Source: Gemmatimonadota bacterium (lineage in GTDB: Bacteria; Gemmatimonadota; Gemmatimonadetes; Longimicrobiales; Gaopeijiaceae). Taken from it: 35,323 nt of DNA. Below, piece after piece: positions 2,668-32,304 of this stretch (position 1 is the first letter of the stretch; each line of letters opens with the position of its first letter). The DNA is taken from the NCBI GenBank assembly GCA_028873845.1, contig JAPPNO010000109.1:1-35323 (forward strand), written 5' to 3'. The notes beneath the pieces are model-generated. The model saw only the letters and a list, made by a program, of their open reading frames with translations, did no database searches and was not told where the DNA came from. The position numbers and the translations under genes were made by a program.

Positions 2668-4041
2668 CTACATGATCACCCGCCGCATGAATTGCCGAAC
2701 CTTCTCCATGTACTTCTCGAAGAAGTACTTCTGGATGTCCATCATGTCCAGCTCGCGGCCCTGGATGTAGGCCTGCTCGATGTCGCTGGTCATGTCGAGC
2801 GGCGTTCCGGTCGTGATCAGGAAGGTCGCCTGCTTGCCCGGCTCCAGGGAGCCGACGCGGTCGTCGAGCCCGAGGAACTGTGCCGGGTTGATCGTGACCG
2901 CTTTCAGCGCCTCTTCCTCGGGAAGCCCGAAGGCGACCGCCACACCCGCTTCGAAGGGCAGCCGGTTCGAGTACAGCGACCCCGAGCCGCCGGAAATCGC
3001 GAAGCGCACGCCCGCCTCGTGCAGACGCGCGGGCATCGAGTATGCGCCGTCGTAGCCCTCGTATTGCCGGCCGGGTCCGGACATCGTCGAGGTCAGGATC
3101 ACCGGTATGTCCTCGGCGACCAGGCGGTCGGCGACATGGATGGCGTCCCGTCCGCCGCGGATGACGATGCGGAGATCCTCCTCCTGCGCCCAGGTGATGG
3201 CGTCGCTGATCTGTGCCGCGCCGTCGGCCGCGACCACGACGGGGAGATCACCGTCGATGACCGGCATCATGGCGGCGTAGCGCGAGTCGCTGCGCACCTC
3301 CTCGCCGGCGGCGACCGCGTCGCGATAGGCCCGCGCCTCCGCGAAGAAGTCCTTCAGCTGCTGGACCTGCTCCTCGTAGCTCGGCGGATCCTCCTGCGGG
3401 CCGAACCTGAAGCCGCGGAACCCGCGGAAGGCGCGGCGGTTGGGGTTGGGCCAGTTCACGTTGAGCGCCGCGGCCGACTGCATCGACATCTCTTCCCAGC
3501 TCCACCCCTCCAGGGCCATCGCGGAGGACATGCCGGAGACGAGTCCGCCGCCGGGAGTCGTGAGCGTGGTGAGCACGCCGGCCGAGCGCGTCGTGCCGAT
3601 ATGGCGGCTCTCGGCGTTCACCGCGATGTCCGCACGCACGTTCGGATTGAAGTCGCCCAGTTCGTTGGTGTCGTTGGATACGTCGACCGCGCCGATCTCG
3701 GCGATCCCCACCGTGCTGTAGGCGTCGATGAGACCGGGGTAGATGTGTTTCCCCGTGGCGTCGACCACGCGGGTCCCGGCCGGAATGTCCACGTCGGCGC
3801 CGATCGCGGTGATCAACCCGTTCTCCAGGAGGATCGTCCCGTTTTCGATGACACCGCTGGTGACGGTATGGATGGTGGCGCCGACCAGCGCAACCGGCTC
3901 GGACTGCGGGGGCACCGTCATTCGGACCTGGGCTCCCAGGATCGCCGGCGCCATCGCCCACAGGACCGCCACAACCGCCGTGGCCCTGCACCCGACCCCC
4001 GGGAGGGATCTCTTCGTCGCACTTCGCTGTGTCGTCGTCAT
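2668..4041 (-). CDS. Amidohydrolase-family secreted protein, metal site degenerate
   Basis: The product has 457 residues with a signal peptide ending near AILGAQ (about residue 37). The amidohydrolase frame is recognisable at both ends: NGTILLENGLITAIGADV, then TGKHIYPGLID, and near the C-terminus VGSLEPGKQATFLI. The metal-binding HxH that should follow GLID is replaced by Y108 and T110 (GLIDAYST), and the usual HxD near the end is replaced by FAISGGSGSL. Catalysis by the standard binuclear mechanism is therefore unlikely; a binding or partner role for the upstream enzyme is an inference. Its ATG overlaps the stop of the upstream gene by four bases (ATGA at 4038-4041), so translation is probably coupled. 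The start was chosen for this overlap and for the signal peptide directly after it; the frame stays open further upstream without family similarity. Confidence 0.85.
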   Translation of the reverse strand: MTTTQRSATKRSLPGVGCRATAVVAVLWAMAPAILGAQVRMTVPPQSEPVALVGATIHTVTSGVIENGTILLENGLITAIGADVDIPAGTRVVDATGKHIYPGLIDAYSTVGIAEIGAVDVSNDTNELGDFNPNVRADIAVNAESRHIGTTRSAGVLTTLTTPGGGLVSGMSSAMALEGWSWEEMSMQSAAALNVNWPNPNRRAFRGFRGFRFGPQEDPPSYEEQVQQLKDFFAEARAYRDAVAAGEEVRSDSRYAAMMPVIDGDLPVVVAADGAAQISDAITWAQEEDLRIVIRGGRDAIHVADRLVAEDIPVILTSTMSGPGRQYEGYDGAYSMPARLHEAGVRFAISGGSGSLYSNRLPFEAGVAVAFGLPEEEALKAVTINPAQFLGLDDRVGSLEPGKQATFLITTGTPLDMTSDIEQAYIQGRELDMMDIQKYFFEKYMEKVRQFMRRVIM

Positions 4042-7000
4042 CGGTTGGTCTCCGTCTCGGCATTCCGGCCGCCGCCGCCCTCGATGGACAGGATGGCCTG
4101 GATGAGTTGTCTGCGTTCCTCCGCGACCCGGTCCCGCATGGCCGCGTCCTCCTCGAGCGAGAAATAGCGGCGGCCATCGACCCATGTCTGCTCGGCCCGC
4201 GTGAACTGCGAAAGCGGGTCGCCGCTCCAGATCACGAAATCGCCGTCCTTGCCCGGCTCCAGCGAGCCCACCCGGTCGTCGATCGCCATCGCCCGCGCCG
4301 ACCCGATGGTCACCGTGGACAGCGCCTGCTCGGGCGTCAGCCCCGTGCGCAACAGCTTGCCCGCCTCCCAGTTCATCCGGCTGGCGATCTGGCTGTTGTC
4401 GGAGTGCAGCGAAGTGACGACCCCCGCCTCGATCAGGATTCGTGCGTTGTACGCCGTCGCGTCGTAGGCTTCGAGCTTGAAGGCGCCCCAGTCGCTCCAC
4501 ACGACCGCGGCCACACCTGAAGCGGCGAGCTCCGGCGCGATCTTGTATGCCTCGACGCCGTGCTGCAGCGTCTGAACCCTGAAGCCGAACTCCTCCGCAA
4601 GGCGAACGAGCGCGAGGAACTCGTCCGCGCGGTAGCCGTGCGACGAGATGAGCAGCTCCTGGTCCAGGATGTCGAGGATCGCCTCCATGCGCAGGTCGCG
4701 CCGCGGGGGAAGTCCCTCCCCGGTCTCCTCCCACCTCTGCCACTCACGCTCGTAGTCGCGCGCGGCCATGAAGTGATCGCGGATGATCTCCTGCGTTCCC
4801 ATGCGGGTGTCGGGGTAGCGTCCCTGACGCCGTTTCGGGTTCTCGCCCAGGGCGAACTTCACCGTTCGGGGCGCGTTCTCCAGCTTGAGATCCTCGGGCA
4901 GCGAACCCCAGCGCATCTTCACGAAGACGTTCTCGCCCCCGATCGGGTTCGCGGAACCGTGCTTGATGTGCGCGGTGGTGAGCCCGCCGGCCACCTGCCG
5001 GTACATCCAGATGTTGTTGTGGGTGACGACGTCGCCCATTCGCACCTCGGGGACGATCGCGAAGCCGCTTTCGTTCACGGCGCTCACGCCCGAATGAATG
5101 TGCGGGTCGATCAGTCCCGGGGTGACGTGCTTCCCCGTGGCATCGATCTCGACCGCGCCGCGGGGGGCATCGAGGTCCATTCCGACCGCTTCGACCGTCC
5201 CCGCGCGAACCAGCAGGTCGGCGCCTTCCAGCGTGCCCCGCGGGCCCTGGGTCCAGACGGTCGCGTTGCGTACGACCACCGCGGCGGGCTGCTCCGGGAT
5301 CGAGGACCGGCCGTAGTCCATCATCGGCCGGATGAACGGCAGGTCGATCTCGGGCACGTCCATCGCCACGGTACCGCGCTCCCGGCCCTCGAAGCCCTCG
5401 GTGCGGGTGCCGCGGAAGGAGGGGTCCGCCCCGTTCGGCAGCGATGTCCAACCGTAGAATTCGTCGCCCCGCACGGAGCCCGACAGGAGCGCCATGCCCT
5501 GGTAGCCGAGCACCTCGCCGTTGAAGCGGGCGTCGATCCGACCGGTCTCCGCGACCGCCCTGGCCGAAGCGAGATCGACCCGCGCGCCGCCGGGCAGCTC
5601 GGGGCCGGTGCTGGCTATGTCGAGGTAGCCCCGCAACCGGTTCAGCGAACCCTCGAGCACCAGGACGGCGTCGAAGCCCCACTCGTCATCCGAAGCGATC
5701 TCCCAGGTTCCCCTGGGATCGATCTGGGCCGGGCGGGTGATCCCGTAGACCCTTCCACGCACCCACACATCGCGAACCGTGGCCTCCTCGGTCAGCAGGT
5801 CGCCCTCGCTGACGATCAGGTTGGCCACCTTGCCCTCGGCGATGGTCCCGTGCGTGCGATCGATTCCGAGCCAGGCGGCCGGTGTCGTGGTGAGCGCGGC
5901 CAGGGCGTCGTCCGCCGAGAGCCCCCGCGCCACCGCGATCCGCAGATTGGGCAGAAACTCGTTCAGCGACGAAAGGCCGTCCGTGGTGATTGCGAAGCCG
6001 ACCCCGGCATCCGCCAGCTGCGCCGGGCCGGTCGGCGCCAGGTACCAGTGGCGCAGGTCGGCGAGCGAGGCATCGAGCGCCGCCCCCGGATAACCCACGT
6101 CCGGGGCGTCCGGGAAGTCCAGGGGCACGATCAGCGGTTCGCTCCGGGTCCGGAGCACGTCGATGATCCGGTATTCCTCACCGTTGCCGCGGTACCAGGC
6201 CTGAAGCCCGAACTCCGACGCCAGGGTGTGGGCCCGGAGATACTCCTCCTCTCCGCGGGTCTCGAAGACCACCGGCTGACCGCCCTGCACGACATCGTCG
6301 AGCGCCGCGAGGGCTTCGCTCGTCTCCGGGGGGAGGAAGGCGCGCCCGCTCGATTCATACGCTTCCCACGCGCGCATGTACCAGTCCGCATCCATGAGCG
6401 TCTGCTTCATGAGCGCGATCGTGCCCATCGCGGAGTTCGGGTACGACCCGCCGAGCTCGAACGAACGCTGGAAGCCGATCGACTGCGCGATATCGGGCCG
6501 CAGCACCCGCTCTCGAACGCCTTCGTCCCCCAGGCTGACCAGCGAGGCCGTGCCCCGGAAGATCCCCTCCTTCGGAACCGCCAGCGCCGCGCCGAAGCCC
6601 TGCGAGCGGAGCGCTGCCCGGCGTTCCTCGTCGTCGGCCAGGTTCCGGGTGGTCGAGAACCACGCCCGCACCTGCGGGTTCCAGTGCGTGGGTCCGATGT
6701 CCCCGCCCTCCGGCACCGCGCCCATCTCCAGATCGGCGTGCGCGTCAATGAAGCCCGGGTAGACGGTGAGCCCGTCGAGGTCCCATACCCGCGCCCCGGC
6801 CGGCGCGTCCGTTCCTCGCCCGACCGACTGGATGAGGCCGTCGCGGATCACGATCGTTGCGTTGTCCAGGACCTGACCCGGCCCGGTCACGACCCTGGCT
6901 CCCACCAGGGCGTGGTAGCCCGTGCCGTTGTCGCGCATGCCCTCGACCGGCTGGGTCCGGCTCGCCTGCTGAGCCTCGGCGCCCGTCGCCAGGACAAACG

Positions 7001-14743: not shown

Positions 14744-15805
14744 ATGCCCGCATCCACCAGCATCCCCGACCTCCTCGGCACCGAAGCCGAAGACCTCCTC
14801 ACCTATCGCGCCACGGGCTTCCGTCGCGACCAGCTCCACCTCCCGGGACCCGACTTCGTCGACCGGGTGGTCGCGGGAACCGACCGGAATCCCCAAGTGC
14901 TCCGCAGCATGCAGCAGATTCTCGGCCACGGCCGCCTGGCCGGAACCGGATACGTCTCGATCCTCCCCGTCGACCAGGGGATCGAGCACTCGGCCGGAGC
15001 TTCCTTCGCCCCCAATCCCGTCTACTTCGACCCGGGCAACATCTGCGAACTGGCCGTGGAGGGAGGGTGCAACGCGGTCGCGTCCACGCTCGGCGTGCTG
15101 GGCTCCGTATCCCGCCGCTACGCACACCGCATCCCCTTCCTCGTCAAGCTGAACCACAACGAACTGCTCACCTACCCCAACCGCTACGACCAGGTCATGT
15201 TCGCGAGCGTGCAGCAGGCGTGGGAGCTGGGGGCGGCGGCGGTGGGCGCGACGGTCTATTTCGGGTCCGACCAGGGGATGCGCCAGCTGCAGGAGGCGTC
15301 CGAAGCCTTCCAGATGGCGCACGAGCTGGGCATGGTGACCGTGCTGTGGTGCTACCTGCGCCAGTCCGCCTTCAACACCGGGGGGAAGAACTACCACGCG
15401 GCCGCCGACCTGACCGGACAGGCCAATCACCTCGGCGTCACGATCGAGGCCGACATCGTCAAGCAGAAGCAGGCCGAGCTGGACGGGGGCTACCGCGCGG
15501 TCGGGTTCGGCCGCACCCACGACAAGGTCTATTCGGACCTCGTGCCCGGCGCGCATCCGATCGAGATGACGCGCTACCAGGTCGCCAACTGCTACATGGG
15601 GCGGGTCGGGCTGATCAACTCGGGCGGCTCGAGCGGGGACAACGACTTCGCGCAGGCGGCGCGCACGGCGGTGATCAACAAGCGGGCCGGCGGGATGGGG
15701 CTGATCTCGGGGCGCAAGGCGTTCCAGCGCCCGATGTCCGAGGGTGTGAAGCTGCTCAACCTGATCCAGGACGTGTTCCTGGACGAGTCGATCGGGGTGG
15801 CGTAG
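14744..15805 (+). CDS. fbaB: Class I fructose-bisphosphate aldolase (DhnA/FbaB type)
   Basis: The 353-residue product is a Schiff-base aldolase of the archaeal/bacterial DhnA type, which splits or forms fructose 1,6-bisphosphate in glycolysis and gluconeogenesis. Visible are [22 protein letters not shown], a VTVLWCYLR strand, the [12 protein letters not shown] stretch with the likely Schiff-base Lys, and the phosphate-binding [14 protein letters not shown] near the C-terminus. The length fits this subfamily. ATG 14744 was chosen because it directly precedes the conserved region; no Shine-Dalgarno sequence precedes it (the bases before it are C/A-rich), so translation may be leaderless or poorly SD-dependent. 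The frame is open further upstream without similarity. Its last 214 bases are also covered, antisense, by the long surface-protein frame ending at 15592. Confidence 0.92.
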
Positions 15806-18800
15806 GGGAAGCCGGCGTATGCGGAGAGGGCGCCCGACCGTCCTCCCGGGAAGGTGAGCGATACGACCCCGGCATCGTCCTCGTCCACCTCCTGTCCGGT
15901 ACTCACCGTCAGCGGCAGGTCCGGGGACCGCGTGAGCACATACCCGTGGTGAACCGGACGGACCTCGCCCCTGAAACCTGTGAATTCCTCCCCGGACGGA
16001 ATCCCCGGCAGAGCTCCGATGTCCACGGAAACCGATCCGGCTCCCAGCGCCGCCGGCGTGACGGTGACCACCGCGCTTCGTAGCGCACCGGTCGGGATCG
16101 TCACTGTGCCGTCGCCACCCGACGAGCCACCGTCAACAACGAGGGAGATCCTGATGGGGAATGGCGCACCGGTCGAAACGGCGGCCTGAAGCTGGCCGGA
16201 ACCCGGAGACGTCAGGGCAACCTCGATCTGCACGGGATCGACGTCATTGCCGTGGAGCCACAACGCCCGCAGCGACGACAGGCCATGAAAGACCCCGTCG
16301 GGAAGCTCATCGAGGTTGTTGTCGCTGAGCAGGAGTACGCTCAGCGCCGTTGTGCCGGCAAACAGATCGGGCGACAGCTCGCTCAGGCCGGCGTTGCTCA
16401 GATCCAGTTGCCGCAAACTCGAGAGATCGCTGAACACACCTTCGGGCAGCCTCCCGAGTTCGTTGCCCTCCAGCGTGAGGGCGGCAAGCGAAGTCATCCC
16501 CGAGAACAGGTCATCGGGCAGCGTGGTAAGTCCGCTTTCATACAAGTACAGGGATTCCAGCGACGACAACCCGGAGAATACGCCGGGCTGCAGCGTTGCA
16601 TAGTCGTTGCCTTCCACATAGAGCCACGTCAGCGAGGGCAGTCCCGAGAACAGTCCCGATGGCAGCGACGTGAGTTCATTGTGGCTGAAATTCAATTCCT
16701 GGAGGCCGGTCAGCCCCGAGAACACGTCCGCCGGCAACGACTCCAGCCTGTTGTAGGACATGAGCAGGACTTGCAATGACGACAGCTCCGAGAAGACATC
16801 CGACGGCAGTCCCGTCAACCGGTTTCCGTATAGGTGCAGCCGTGAGAGTCCGGCAAGGCCGGCGAAATCGCCGGATCTCAGGGATGTGATGCCCTTGTTT
16901 TCAAGTGACAGGCGGGAGATCGATGCGAGTTGATTGTCGGTAACCGCCGCACAGTCGCCGGCCCCCAGGACCTCGAGGATCCCGCTGCGCACGGCGCCGG
17001 TACGATCGCAAATGGGCGACGGATTGCCCGGCTCGATCACGGTCACGCCGAAGTCCAGCCTTGCGGCCAGCCCTGCCGGGTCGCGCCCTGTGATCTCTAT
17101 TGTGGCATCACCGGGTCCCACCGCGTCCACCGCCACCTCGCTCCCCGACACTCTCGCTGTGACGACAGCCGGGTCGGAACTCGCGGCTGTGAAGACCAGC
17201 CCGTCGTTGTCCGGGTCGACCAGGTAGCGCGCGGCGTCGACTGTGGTCGAATCGCCTTCGTTCAGGGTCCTCGCGGCGACCGCGGCGACCACCACGGGGG
17301 AGCGGTTCGTCCCGGACGCCTCGAGGACGGTTACCGTGAATTCGCGCGTCGCGCTCAGCCCTTCCGGGTCACTCGCCGTGATCGCGAGGGTCGCCGCACC
17401 TACTGCCGCCGCACGCAACCGCACCGTGTCCCCCGACACCGTCGCCCTGGACACGGCAGTGTCCGAACTCGTCACCGAGAAACGCAACGGATCGCCATCG
17501 GGATCCGAAAAGCGGGAACCGACGCCCAGCGTCCTGAAGTCGCCCTCCTCCATCGTCTGCCCCGGGATCCGCCCCACCACGGCCGGAGCACGGTTCGCAC
17601 CTGTGCCGGACCCACCCGACGCCTGCACCTGCACCCCGAATTCATGCTCCGCGGACAATCCTCGCCCGTCCCGTCCCACGATCGTCACGGTCGCGGCCCC
17701 TTTCCTCACGGCCCGCACCAGGACCTCGTCTCGCGACACCCATGCCTTCGCCACCGCCGGATCCGAACTCGCCGCCTCGAAGGCCAGGGTGTCGCCATCG
17801 GGGTCGGTGAAGTGTGGCGAGGGATTCAGCCGGCGGATTCCGGATTCGACAACGCGGACCACGGGGAGCCGGCCGAGTGCCAGGGGTGCACGGTTGGGGA
17901 CGGTCACACCGAAAGTCCGGCTGGCGGCGAGGCCTGCCGGATCGGTGGCCGTGATCGTCACGGAACTCTCGCCCCTCGCGACCGCCGCCACGGTCAGGGA
18001 CGGTCCATCGAGCGAAACCCGGGCCACCGCGGCGTCGAAGGATGTGGCCTCGAAGGCCAGGGTGTCGCCATCGGGATCCGTGAAGAAGGAGGGCAGCGCG
18101 AGTCCCACGGAGTCGCCAACCTCGACCGTTTGCCGCTCGATCGTGCCGACGGGACGCGGGGGACGGTTGCGTACGGTCACGGCAAGTGATTGCACGGCCT
18201 CGAGGCCGTCCGCATCGGCGGCGGTGACCGTCACGCCGGCCTTGCCCCGCGCGACGGCCGCGATGGTCATGGAGCCGTCGGCAACCGCGACGTCAACCAC
18301 CGTCGAGTCGGAACCGGCCGCCGACAGGGTCAGGCGGTCGCCGTCGGGATCGCTGAACCGGGGCGCCAGGTCGATCTGCACGGTGTCTCCCGGGTCGGCG
18401 GTCCAGGAGGGGATCGCGCCAACCGCGACCGGCGCCCGGTTCGGCACGGTTGCGGTCATGTCGCGGGCGATGGCCAGCCCCTCGGGGTCGCTGGCCGTGA
18501 TCGTGACGGCTGTTTCGCCTTTGGCCGCCGCCGTGATCGTCATGGTGGACCCGTTGACGGAGGCCCCCGCCACCAGGGTGTCCGATGCAGCCGTGTAGGA
18601 GAGCGGGTCGCCGTCGGGATCGCTGAAGAGGGGCAGGAGGTCGAAGACGGCGGAATCGCCGACCTCGATGGTCCGCGGCAGTATCGTGCCCTCCGCCACC
18701 GGTCCCCGGTTCGGCACGATCACCGGGAACGTGTGCGCGGCGACGAGCCCTTCCGTGTCGGTGGCCGCGATCGTTACACCCGCCTCGCCCTTCGCGATCG

Positions 18801-19908
18801 CGGCGATCGTGACCGTCCCACCCTCCACCGCGGCGCCGACCACGGTGGAGTCCGACGTCTCGGCCGCGTAGACCAGCGTGTCACCGTCGGGGTCGTCGAA
18901 GAGGGCCGGCGCGTCCAGCTCCGCGGATTCTCCGACCCGCACCGTATCGGTCGCGACGGCGCCCACGGCGACCGGCGGCCGGTTCGGGACCGTGACAACG
19001 AAGTCGAGCGCCGCCGCCAGACCCTCCGTATCGGCCGCGGTCACCAAGACGGTCGCCGTGCCCTTCCCGAGCGCCGCCACCCAAACCGTGCCCCCCGATA
19101 CCGAAACCGCGAGACGCCGCGGGTCGGAGACAGTGGCGGCGAAGCTCAGCGAATCTCCGTCCGGATCGCTGAAGTGGCCGGCAACATCCTGGACCACCGT
19201 GTCCCCCACTTCCACCGTTCGCGCCCGGATCGAGTCCACCGCGACCGGCCCCCGGTTCGGAACGGTGACCGCGAAGTCCTGCGTGGCGGACAATCCGCCC
19301 GGGTCGGTCGCAGTGACCACCACGACGGCCGTCCCCCTGGCCCGCCCTTCCACCGTGAACCCGGTGCCGATCCCGCTGACCCGAGTCACGCTCGTGTCGG
19401 AAGAGAGCGCCCCGTAGCTCAGTTCCTGTCCGTCCGGCTCCGCGAAGTACCCGCTCACGTCGACTGTCGCGGACCCCCCGGCGGAGACCTCGAGCGGCGG
19501 GATGGTCCCGACAGGAGCGGGACTGCGGTTCGGCACGATGACCCTGAAGCGCGTCGCCCCCGTCAGTCCGCTCACATCCGTCGCCACGACCGAAACCGTC
19601 GAGCTGCCGGGCGCCAGCCCCGCGATCGCCAGCGTGGCTGCCGAGGCCCGGGCAGAGGCCACAGCCGGATCCGATGTGGTGGCCGAATACCGAAGAATGT
19701 CGCCGTTCGGGTCATCGAAGCATGCCTGGACCGTCGCCGCCTCCCCGACATGGACGAACTGGTCGGCAATGCTGTCGCATGCCACGGGCGGCTGCGGGTT
19801 CTCGCAGGCAAAACACGCCACCGCACCGGCCACCGCTGCCCAGGGACGAACGTTGCATCGGCACGGCGTCCAACGCCGCACCCCTGCCCTTTGTACTTGT
19901 GCCGACAT
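15592..19908 (-). CDS. Giant surface lipoprotein: ten cadherin-like repeats plus ten leucine-rich repeats
   Basis: The 1438-residue frame starts with a basic N-terminus, a hydrophobic stretch and a possible lipobox ending at FAC, so it is probably a lipoprotein exposed outside. Residues ~40-945 hold ten tandem ~90-residue repeats, each with a VGD or EGD turn, an FSDPDGD calcium-type loop, a VTITAxDPEGL strand and a VPNRxP linker, the pattern of bacterial cadherin-like/Ig-fold repeats. A short Cys-containing cap ([21 protein letters not shown]) leads to ten 24-residue leucine-rich repeats of the form LxxLxLxxNxLxxLPxxVFSGLSS. A beta-rich tail follows. Roles in adhesion or protein-protein contact are inferred. 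The last ~71 residues are encoded antisense to the aldolase gene and have no similarity to the rest; the true stop may have been lost or shifted. Confidence 0.85.
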
Positions 19909-29579: not shown

Positions 29580-29602
29580 GATATATATTATATCTATATA
29601 TC
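29580..29602. repeat. AT-only inverted repeat before a possible start
   Basis: GATATATA (29580-29587), TTATATC, TATATATC (29595-29602) forms a perfect 8-base inverted repeat in an island of almost pure A/T within GC-rich DNA. A TATACT hexamer lies nearby at 29548-29553. It may be a promoter or operator region for the downstream lipoprotein gene; no -35 partner is clear. Confidence 0.4.
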
Positions 29603-29737
29603 GTGGAAACACGGCACGCGATGTCCATGGAACTGGAGCAACCCCTCATGCCGACGCTTCCAACCGTGCAATCGACCGCGGATCCATCGCCGCCCGCGCG
29701 CTGCGGGGGGAATTCCGCCGGCCCCGGAGCGCCGATC

Positions 29738-31954
29738 GTGAGGCGGTCCGCCGGCGGCGCGGCCCGACCCCCGGCGAAAGCAATCATACTCCTCTTCGCC
29801 CTGTTCGCAGGAGTGTCATGCGGTGGCGGGCGGAGCGACGACCCGGACGCCACTCTGCGGCGCGACTCGGCCGGCATCGCCATCGCCGATAACCAGGCGG
29901 GCGACCGTCCCTTCCACGGGCGGATCGTGCACGTGGCCGACCTGGTGACGCCGGACGGCGCGCTCTCCCCGCGTCCGTGGGGCGTCCGGGCGCACCGGGC
30001 CACCCAGCGCGTGTTCGTGGCGGACGGGGCGGGGAGGCGGGTCGCCGTCTTCGATGCCGCGGGCGGATTTGTCGGGGAGCTTGGACGTGCCGGAGAGGGA
30101 CCCGGCGAGTTTCAGCTTCCCAGCGCGCTCGCGGTGGAGGAATGCAACCGCGAATCCTGTCACGGACTGCCCGGCCCGGCGGAAGTGCTCGTGGTGCTGG
30201 ACTCGCGGCGCGGCGTCCTGAGCCGCTGGTCGGCCAGCGGTGAATTCCTGGGCGAGGAGCGCGCGCCGGCGGACTACTGGGGACCCGGGTTCGCCGTCGG
30301 CCGCGACTACTTCGCTACCGTTACCTCCAGCAACTCCTCCAGCAGCCCCCCCGGCGGTTCCTCCGGCAGCGCGGGGATGGGGATCGCACAGCGGCTGGAA
30401 GTGCGCACGGCGGAGGGAAGCCGGGTTATCCACGAAGTCTCCTACGAAATGACGCTGATGGAGCTCCCCTGCGCGACCATGCCCGCGCCGAGGATCTTCG
30501 CGCCGGAAGTCGTGTGGGCGCACGCGGGCGACAACTTCTACTACCTGAACGGTCCCGGCTACCGCATCGACGTCTGGTCCGATGGTGCGCCGGCGATCAG
30601 TTTTCGGCGCCCGATCGGGCCGCTCGCGGTTTCACGCCCGATGGCGGCGATGGCCGCCCGGACCGGTTCGGGTCCGTACGGAGCGTTCATGAGGCAGTGC
30701 GGCATCTCGGCGGAGGAACTGGTCGACGCGGTGGGATACGAGGAGGAGCTGGCGCCGGTGATGGGACTGGCGGTGGATCCCGGGGGCCGGTTGTGGGTGG
30801 CCCGCAGGGGTAGCGGACCTGCCCCCGAGGCCATCGACATCCTCGGTCCCGAAGGCGATTACCTGGGGACTCTGACCGCGGGCGTTCTTCCGGTCGCGTT
30901 CCTCTCCGCGTCGAGCTTCGTCGGCGTGCGCCTCGAATCGTCCACGGGACGGGTCCTGGCGTCGATCCACGATGTGCGGGGCGATGCGTTACCGGTCCCG
31001 GGGCGGGATCGGGTCATGCCTGGGCGGCAAGCATCAAGGCCGCGACCGAGCGAGGAAGCTGCGCGGGACGGGGCGGACGACCCGCGGGAAGACGCCGGCG
31101 CCGCTCGCCCGCCCGCCCCGAACCCGGCCGGGCTGCGCGAATTCCGGGATTGCCCGGCCTGCCCGCTCATGGTCGAGCTGCCGCGCGGACGCTACACGAT
31201 GGGAAGGGCGGTGGGGGAGGAGGAGCGAACGGGGCATGACAGGGACCCGAACCGGCCGCAGCGCACGCGGGACATCGAGAGACCTCGGCTCGAGGTCGAT
31301 ATCGCCTACCCGTTCGCACTGGGAAAGTACGAAGTCACCTTCGACGAATGGGACCATTGCGTTGACGAAGGCGGCTGCGGCTACAGGCCCACCGATCGGG
31401 GGTTTGGCCGGGGGGACCGGCCCGTCATCCATGTTTCCCGCCTGGATGCCGAGGAATACCTGGCATGGCTCAGCGAGGCCACGGGGCAACCGTACCGGCT
31501 GCCGTCGAGCGCCGAGTGGGAATACGCCGCGCGCGCCGGCACGACCACCGCCCGCTGGTGGGGCGATGAACTGGGGACCGGAAGGGCGGTCTGCGACGGG
31601 TGCGGCAGCCGCTGGGACGATCGTTCGACCGCGCCGGTGGGCTCCTTTCCACCCAACCCGTGGGGCCTGCACGACATGCTCTCGAACGTGTCCGAGGTGG
31701 TCGCCGACTGCTGGCACGAGAGCTACGTCGGCCACCCGACCGACGGATCGCCGAGACTGGAGGCGCCGCCGGGCTGGCCCGACGGGGAATGCATGCGGGC
31801 CACCTGGCGAGGGGGCGCCTGGTCCTTCTTCGCCTGGACCGTTCGGGCTGCGACCCGTGGCGGCGGGAACATGGATCTCGGGTATCGAGGCGATCATCCA
31901 AGGGCCGGGGGGAGTCGTGGGTTTCGGGTGGCGAGGGCGGTGGAGCCGGGCTGA
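29738..31954 (+). CDS. Six-bladed propeller lipoprotein fused to a formylglycine-generating-enzyme-like domain
   Basis: The best start is GTG 29738: GGAG lies 8 bases upstream (29726-29729), and the frame then gives a textbook lipoprotein signal (basic start, IILLFALFAGVSC, Cys28). The 738-residue product has a six-bladed/NHL propeller at ~55-425 (GRRVAVFDAAGGFVGELGRAGEGPGEF, LVVLDSRRGVLSRWSASGEFLGE, GLAVDPGGRLWVARRG) and a charged Pro/Ala-rich linker (~430-470). An FGE/SUMF1-type domain follows at ~475-738 (LPRGRYTMG, GKYEVTFDEWDHCVDEGGC, RLPSSAEWEYAARAGT, GLHDML, RGGAW, GFRVARA). The two Cys that copper-dependent FGE uses near RGGAW are absent (SFFAWTV), so sulfatase activation is unlikely. 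Its propeller resembles the fragment at 32077-32304. An upstream ATG at 29648 is less likely. Confidence 0.84.
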   Translation: MRRSAGGAARPPAKAIILLFALFAGVSCGGGRSDDPDATLRRDSAGIAIADNQAGDRPFHGRIVHVADLVTPDGALSPRPWGVRAHRATQRVFVADGAGRRVAVFDAAGGFVGELGRAGEGPGEFQLPSALAVEECNRESCHGLPGPAEVLVVLDSRRGVLSRWSASGEFLGEERAPADYWGPGFAVGRDYFATVTSSNSSSSPPGGSSGSAGMGIAQRLEVRTAEGSRVIHEVSYEMTLMELPCATMPAPRIFAPEVVWAHAGDNFYYLNGPGYRIDVWSDGAPAISFRRPIGPLAVSRPMAAMAARTGSGPYGAFMRQCGISAEELVDAVGYEEELAPVMGLAVDPGGRLWVARRGSGPAPEAIDILGPEGDYLGTLTAGVLPVAFLSASSFVGVRLESSTGRVLASIHDVRGDALPVPGRDRVMPGRQASRPRPSEEAARDGADDPREDAGAARPPAPNPAGLREFRDCPACPLMVELPRGRYTMGRAVGEEERTGHDRDPNRPQRTRDIERPRLEVDIAYPFALGKYEVTFDEWDHCVDEGGCGYRPTDRGFGRGDRPVIHVSRLDAEEYLAWLSEATGQPYRLPSSAEWEYAARAGTTTARWWGDELGTGRAVCDGCGSRWDDRSTAPVGSFPPNPWGLHDMLSNVSEVVADCWHESYVGHPTDGSPRLEAPPGWPDGECMRATWRGGAWSFFAWTVRAATRGGGNMDLGYRGDHPRAGGSRGFRVARAVEPG

Positions 31955-32076: not shown

Positions 32077-32304
32077 TCAATTAACCTCAAGCGGCACCCG
32101 CTTCACCACCACCGTCTCCACCCCCAGCTCGTCCTTTTCGATGAATGCCACCAGACCGTCGGGGCCAAAGGCGGCGGGGATCCCGGTCGCGCCGGTACGG
32201 TAGCTGCCCACATACCGGCCCGCCATGTCCAGCACGTCGATGGGACCGACACTTACCGGTCCGTCGCCGCGCCGAAGCACCCAGATCATGCCGTTCCCGG
32301 CCAT
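32077..32304 (-). pseudogene. C-terminal remnant of a six-bladed propeller protein
   Basis: The 75-residue frame from ATG 32304 to TGA 32077 resembles the last propeller strands of proteins like the one at 29738-31954. [10 protein letters not shown]...[17 protein letters not shown] matches LWVARRGSGP...IDILGPEGDYLGTLTAG of that gene. A further [16 protein letters not shown] segment follows. Upstream of the ATG the frame has unrelated AT-rich sequence and soon a stop (TAG at 32352-32350), so the rest of the protein is missing. It is read convergent to the gene at 29738. It is therefore a leftover of a second propeller gene, not a functional small protein; a genuine 75-residue gene is the less likely alternative. 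Confidence 0.6.

Follow-up and report, generated by a model that had tools for sequence, protein, structure and literature searches.

The locus analyzed here raises the question of whether a lipoprotein signal, a six-bladed propeller and an FGE-type (SUMF1-type) domain can belong to one genuine protein and, if so, what such a domain may do when the two cysteines used to make formylglycine are missing. The window (the whole stretch of DNA analyzed, 35,323 nucleotides) lies on contig C46 of a 4.05 Mb genome that is 96.5% complete. The gene occupies a single frame on the + strand (29603-31954, 783 aa), with a GTG at 29738 as the likely start. The first-pass annotation had read this frame as lipoprotein signal, propeller and FGE-type domain, the last of them lacking the catalytic cysteines near RGGAW and with GNVWEWV changed to SNVSEVV. 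Coordinates and motifs were borne out, the lipoprotein signal as a probable one, and the features are as follows.

29580-29602 (no strand assigned): 23-bp imperfect palindrome GATATATATTATATCTATATATC, a predicted PadR operator; agrees with the box that precedes padR in the relatives' linked operons
29738-29821 (+): probable lipoprotein signal MRRSAGGAARPPAKAIILLFALFAGVSC, from the sequence; Cys73 of the long frame at 29819-29821
29855-30982 (+): six-bladed NHL/DUF5128-type propeller, aa about 85-460 (Pfam PF17170, AlphaFold2, Foldseek)
30983-31138 (+): charged Pro/Ala/Glu-rich linker, aa about 461-512 (in-frame lengths in homologues; weakest constraint)
31139-31939 (+): FGE-fold (C-type-lectin-like) PvdO-like domain, aa 513-779 (PF03781, model, VIA, cysteine tally)
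31682-31702 (+): SNVSEVV in place of GNVWEWV, aa 694-700 (identical in 11 of 11 fused genus orthologues)
31802-31840 (+): TWRGGAWSFFAWT region, the FGE counterpart being SxLCxxxYC; both catalytic Cys absent and loop 3 residues shorter (alignment A2)

A domain search, which the first-pass annotation had proposed, placed both modules above the Pfam cut-off: FGE-sulfatase PF03781 at aa 520-756 (134 bits, cut-off 23.3, E=8.9e-39) and the DUF5128 six-bladed propeller PF17170 at aa 114-184 (26.1 bits, cut-off 22.9). The lipobox AGVSC, ending at Cys73, fits at positions -1 and -2 and has an atypical Gly at -3; the position of the hydrophobic stretch and of the Cys is conserved in relatives.

Elsewhere in the window, a lone 75-aa C-terminal fragment adjoining the fused gene (32077-32304, - strand) ends like the propeller lipoproteins and seems, from its sequence, to be a relic of a further propeller gene. 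At the left end of the contig there is a tandem pair of phage-integrase-family C-terminal fragments (3-398 and 534-1004, + strand). Besides, a 1438-aa protein (15592-19908, - strand) carries cadherin/Big-type Ig domains followed by leucine-rich repeats; judging by these domains, the sponge-type bacterium has here a surface architecture like that of eukaryotes. We take the bacteria bearing the fusion to be of sponge origin from the names of the metagenome bins (RHO1, SB066x).

Conservation and origin of the fusion

The first-pass annotation did not know this fusion as a standard architecture. Whole-genome searches with the window protein as query and with an 18-sequence profile (A1) recovered a single open frame holding both modules, propeller and FGE domain, from 34 genomes of two families of the class Gemmatimonadetes. 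Specifically, 11 belong to the genus of the window, 8 to its sister genus g2, 1 to g7 and 14 to family f7 of the same class (13 from g85 and 1 from g124); a few fused copies are truncated at a contig end or disrupted (G017, G200, G002). Identity to the window protein was 64-93% in the genus orthologues and about 50% in g2. Full-length fused frames in this number of genomes exceed chance by far. The fusion is thus real and no one-off, being conserved in two families of one class. Literature searches on this architecture, on FGE-sulfatase proteins of sponge symbionts and on propeller lipoproteins of Gemmatimonads gave no description of the fusion. One frame of about 1000 aa (997-1010; L042:1757-4750) has the order propeller-FGE-FGE.

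An erroneous joining of two separate genes near 31020-31140 in sequencing or assembly, as the first-pass annotation had allowed, might be argued from the unfused propeller (3944-5419) and FGE (5525-6403) neighbors at L060 of the same genome, but it is so improbable that we regard it as ruled out, given the 34 genomes with one-contig assemblies among them (G033: 4,472,315 bases, 1 contig) and a linker that shows no visible signal peptide and takes at least nine lengths, from 24 to 59 aa and always in frame, among the 18 fused homologues. Selection was estimated by comparing the window gene with those of G031, G033 and G027. The FGE part gave dN/dS values of 0.09-0.13 and the propeller 0.22-0.32, and the linker had the highest value of the three parts in the pairs compared. 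Both domains are under purifying selection.

The tree gathers the fused domains and 7 unfused ones into a single clade of 41 (support 98/96), and the sister of this clade is the caspase-FGE branch of Burkholderiaceae. The fused label requires at least six changes on the FGE tree, indicating that splits and/or repeated fusions have occurred; some of the changes may be losses. The unfused genes lying side by side at L060 are a plausible precursor state. One copy, in G011 (L015, contig C41), lies inside the f7 clade and is nearly identical to the f7 copies, although its genome belongs to the family of the window; it may reflect horizontal transfer or a stray or contaminating contig in the bin. 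In the sister branch, a Pandoraea gene (L044:4438-6708) joins a caspase (Peptidase_C14) to an FGE domain of the PvdO-like type.

A PvdO-like domain with other cysteines

In the full-length AlphaFold2 model the propeller was good (pLDDT mostly 70-95) and the FGE part poor, because its alignment was shallow. Foldseek matched the propeller best to NHL domains (E about 1e-11), namely those of Thin, Brat and the TRIM proteins, and to BF0058 of Bacteroides. A model of the FGE domain built on an alignment of 65 domains reached a mean pLDDT of 90 and a pTM of 0.92. The first-pass annotation had suggested comparing such a model with human FGE. The FGE fold was indeed matched, and PvdO was nearer: PvdO (5hha) was the top structural match, with a VIA Z of 33.2 and 38% identity over 242 residues, versus 26.3 for human FGE (26-27 for FGEs in general); TvpA and PorK (Z 26.6) were also among the matches. 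By sequence profile PvdO again came first (E=4e-64).

We have examined the columns of the catalytic pair in alignment A2. All seven catalytic FGEs (L081-L087) have Cys there, and none of the 58 PvdO-like domains does, whether among the 34 fused or the 24 other ones; the loop after RGGS is 3 residues shorter in the PvdO-like domains. The fused proteins have eight other invariant cysteines (aa 517, 520, 586, 592, 664, 667, 703 and 730 of the window protein). Seven of these recur without exception in the other 24 PvdO-like domains, and the catalytic FGEs conserve none of the eight. The PvdO-like domains form a branch separate from the catalytic FGEs with support 100/100. Since the pair is absent throughout and other cysteines are invariant, we regard them as a separate branch and not as a decayed FGE. 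The pair is therefore missing, as first annotated, without having been lost. Decay of an FGE is ruled out, the whole branch being without the pair and the domain under strong constraint. As far as its sequence tells, the FGE part cannot use the two-cysteine mechanism of FGE. The window genome has three PF03781 genes, none of them with the catalytic pair, and at its 96.5% completeness gave no match to the sulfatase family PF00884, for which 10 of 14 control genomes were positive.

The change of GNVWEWV to SNVSEVV is likewise real. Being fixed in all 11 genus orthologues, SNVSEVV is a trait of the lineage, and the first reading has to be amended to a lineage-specific divergence under selection that preserves the acidic residues of the motif region. 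Actually, other domains carry variants of the same region (GNVSEL, GNVTEW, GNAREW, SNVTEW, SNVSEW), and the acidic residues 186 and 193 of the window domain are kept in nearly all of the 65 domains. We take these two positions to correspond to D/N293 and E300 of FGE.

The closeness to PvdO gives the main rival to a non-catalytic role. The FGE-fold domain could be a periplasmic oxidoreductase that oxidizes a small molecule with a metal or a partner protein, the propeller recruiting or positioning the substrate. PvdO is the best match in both sequence and structure, also lacks the FGE pair and is still required for the oxidation of dihydropyoverdine (PMC6206403). An enzymatic role is possible because this closest solved relative is required for an oxidation. 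However, PvdO showed neither activity nor a detectable cofactor after purification (PMC6206403), the predicted genes adjoining the fused genes examined included no biosynthetic cluster, and the GNVWEW region, invariant in catalytic FGEs except for one Q, is altered in the fused proteins. On balance we consider this reading unlikely, but a serious one.

A linked padR operon and its box

In G209 (L068) and G011 (L015) the fusion is the fourth gene of a tight operon, following padR, a HAAS-like helical membrane protein and a protein of about 122 aa that resembles the MotA/TolQ/ExbB core. In g2 the padR, HAAS-like and ExbB-like genes lie downstream of the fusion. In four species (G013, G015, G020, G023) the ExbB-like part is itself fused in frame ahead of lipobox, propeller and FGE domain. 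In two such frames (L037:5608-8109 and L009:1108-3630) a MotA/ExbB-like segment with three transmembrane helices precedes the lipobox, an odd place for a lipobox, within a multi-TM protein. With few exceptions, such as contig edges, the 24 strongest ExbB-like matches in the class are at FGE or propeller/FGE loci.

The linked PadR is a clear Pfam match in the relatives (E 1e-24). The helical membrane protein stays below the HAAS cut-off (E=0.022), and its gene is coupled to padR in the manner set out for HAAS-PadR systems in PMC11237479, where they are presented as a membrane-stress alternative to two-component systems. The ExbB-like protein exceeds the PF01618 cut-off of 22.9 in L043 (31.0) and is below it in L037, L009, L015 and L068. 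The fused gene does not adjoin the padR operon in the window species or in several close relatives; the window genome carries its padR/HAAS-like/ExbB-like trio on contig C20, where it follows another propeller lipoprotein.

A 23-bp palindrome, GATATAAAGATnATCTTTATATC, is located in front of padR in the relatives. When its consensus GATATAWAKATNATMTWTATATC was searched with up to 3 mismatches, the window contained one match (29580-29602), directly before the fused gene, and 100 shuffles contained none. This is also the only consensus site at that threshold in the 4.05 Mb genome. Upstream of padR in the relatives the box gives 23/23 matches, and the C20 padR operon of the window genome has no clear standard box (best score 15/23). 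Within g85, 12 of 17 genomes carry the box site, each of them together with the fused gene; of the five g85 genomes without the box, G302 has the fusion on a contig that stops short of padR. In a sample of the family, the box was present in 3 of 58 genomes, namely the window genome, G016, where it stands in front of a propeller-padR operon, and G051, which has two sites, one of them next to an ExbB-like gene. The linkage to the padR operon is thus lost in the window gene, and a padR-type box is kept. PadR probably binds at 29580-29602, which we treat as a predicted operator.

The operon brings in a more speculative alternative, in which the fused protein is a GldK/PorK-like structural part of an energized envelope machine, an FGE-fold lipoprotein working with a MotA/ExbB-like proton-channel subunit and the propeller serving as TolB-like adaptor. 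One of the top fold matches is PorK, the NCBIfam GldK model matches weakly, a MotA/ExbB-like protein is in the operon or fused, and conserved cysteines give GldK, an FGE-fold lipoprotein, its disulfide tethering (PMC12635249). Against it, the GldK score is 50.1 bits for a cut-off of 350, the linked ExbB-like protein is minimal and below the Pfam cut-off in most copies, no ExbD/MotB-like partner was seen in the linked operon, and the ExbB-like protein of the window genome is on another contig. We find it doubtful. Scarcely credible is a target of a diversity-generating retroelement with a hypermutated C-terminus binding varied ligands: the variable proteins TvpA, TaqVP and Mtd have the same fold and FGE-type targets are known (PMC10907252), but the C-terminal region is conserved among orthologues under purifying selection, and no reverse transcriptase (RVT_1) was found in the window genome (96.5% complete) with control genomes positive, which rules it out for this genome as far as it is assembled.

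Proposed role and comparison with known systems

Conservation of the fusion in 34 genomes and its tie to a membrane-signaling operon point to an uncharacterized envelope binding or sensing protein and not to an artefact. We favor, with middling confidence, an envelope lipoprotein controlled by PadR/HAAS in which both folds bind, sense or scaffold and no formylglycine is made. This reading builds on what was observed directly: the fusion and its conservation, both folds, the absence of the cysteine pair across the branch, the operon linkage of the relatives and the box. The propeller and the PvdO-like domain would be held on one envelope-lipoprotein chain by a flexible linker, both offering extracytoplasmic surfaces for binding or assembly through which something at the cell surface is sensed or scaffolded, and the lipoprotein would act together with the small ExbB-like membrane protein. 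PadR would bind the 23-bp palindrome and set expression in response to its HAAS membrane partner. The FGE-fold domain would make no formylglycine, and in the window species the gene may have moved off its operon with the same operator retained. The non-catalytic envelope binding module of the first-pass annotation is thereby plausible. Part of the association could be chance, given how hugely the propeller family has expanded in these genomes.

The conserved domain architecture and the operon are new and the folds are known; on present evidence this is no new kind of system. It would be a long shot to see here an energized envelope complex distinct from type 9 secretion, built in sponge-associated Gemmatimonadota from an FGE-fold lipoprotein and a MotA/ExbB-like channel under PadR/HAAS control with a propeller adaptor; in four species a single polypeptide holds the channel-like, propeller and FGE-fold parts. 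FGE-fold domains are routinely annotated as sulfatase-modifying enzymes, and the fused branch warns against reading them as sulfatase activators. The architecture is interesting because it is testable: one box, one regulator and one lipoprotein give a handle on the role of a large non-catalytic PvdO-like group at the surface of these sponge-metagenome bacteria.

Among named systems, PvdO of Pseudomonas (5hha; NF051459) shares the FGE fold, the N-terminal DCxxCP and DCW...C cysteines, the lack of the catalytic pair and export. However, it is a stand-alone protein of pyoverdine clusters, whereas the fused domain sits on a propeller lipoprotein linked to PadR/HAAS/ExbB-like genes, and the window protein scores 129.9 bits against the NCBIfam equivalog cut-off of 500. 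SUMF1/FGE (PF03781) has the same fold (Z about 26) and most of the scaffold, and differs in its C336/C341-type pair; the fused domain has the shorter loop and the eight other cysteines, and its genome the lack of a sulfatase match. GldK/PorK of type 9 secretion and gliding is an FGE-fold lipoprotein too, and the relatives also have a proton-channel-like gene adjacent, but the equivalog cut-off is far from reached, GldK has no propeller and no T9SS partner was identified here. The HAAS-PadR systems (PMC11237479) likewise pair padR with a helical membrane partner through overlapping genes and are tied to other membrane domains; here the partner falls below the HAAS cut-off, and the available part of that study does not describe an ExbB-like protein with a propeller/FGE lipoprotein as effector. 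The caspase-FGE fusion of Burkholderiaceae (L044), a sister branch of the FGE domain, has an N-terminal Peptidase_C14 where the window protein has its propeller. Finally, the DUF5128/NHL propeller lipoproteins, with many paralogues in these genomes, share the propeller fold and the GxGEGPGEF signature; the usual one stops after the propeller, whereas the window protein continues with a linker and the FGE-fold domain.
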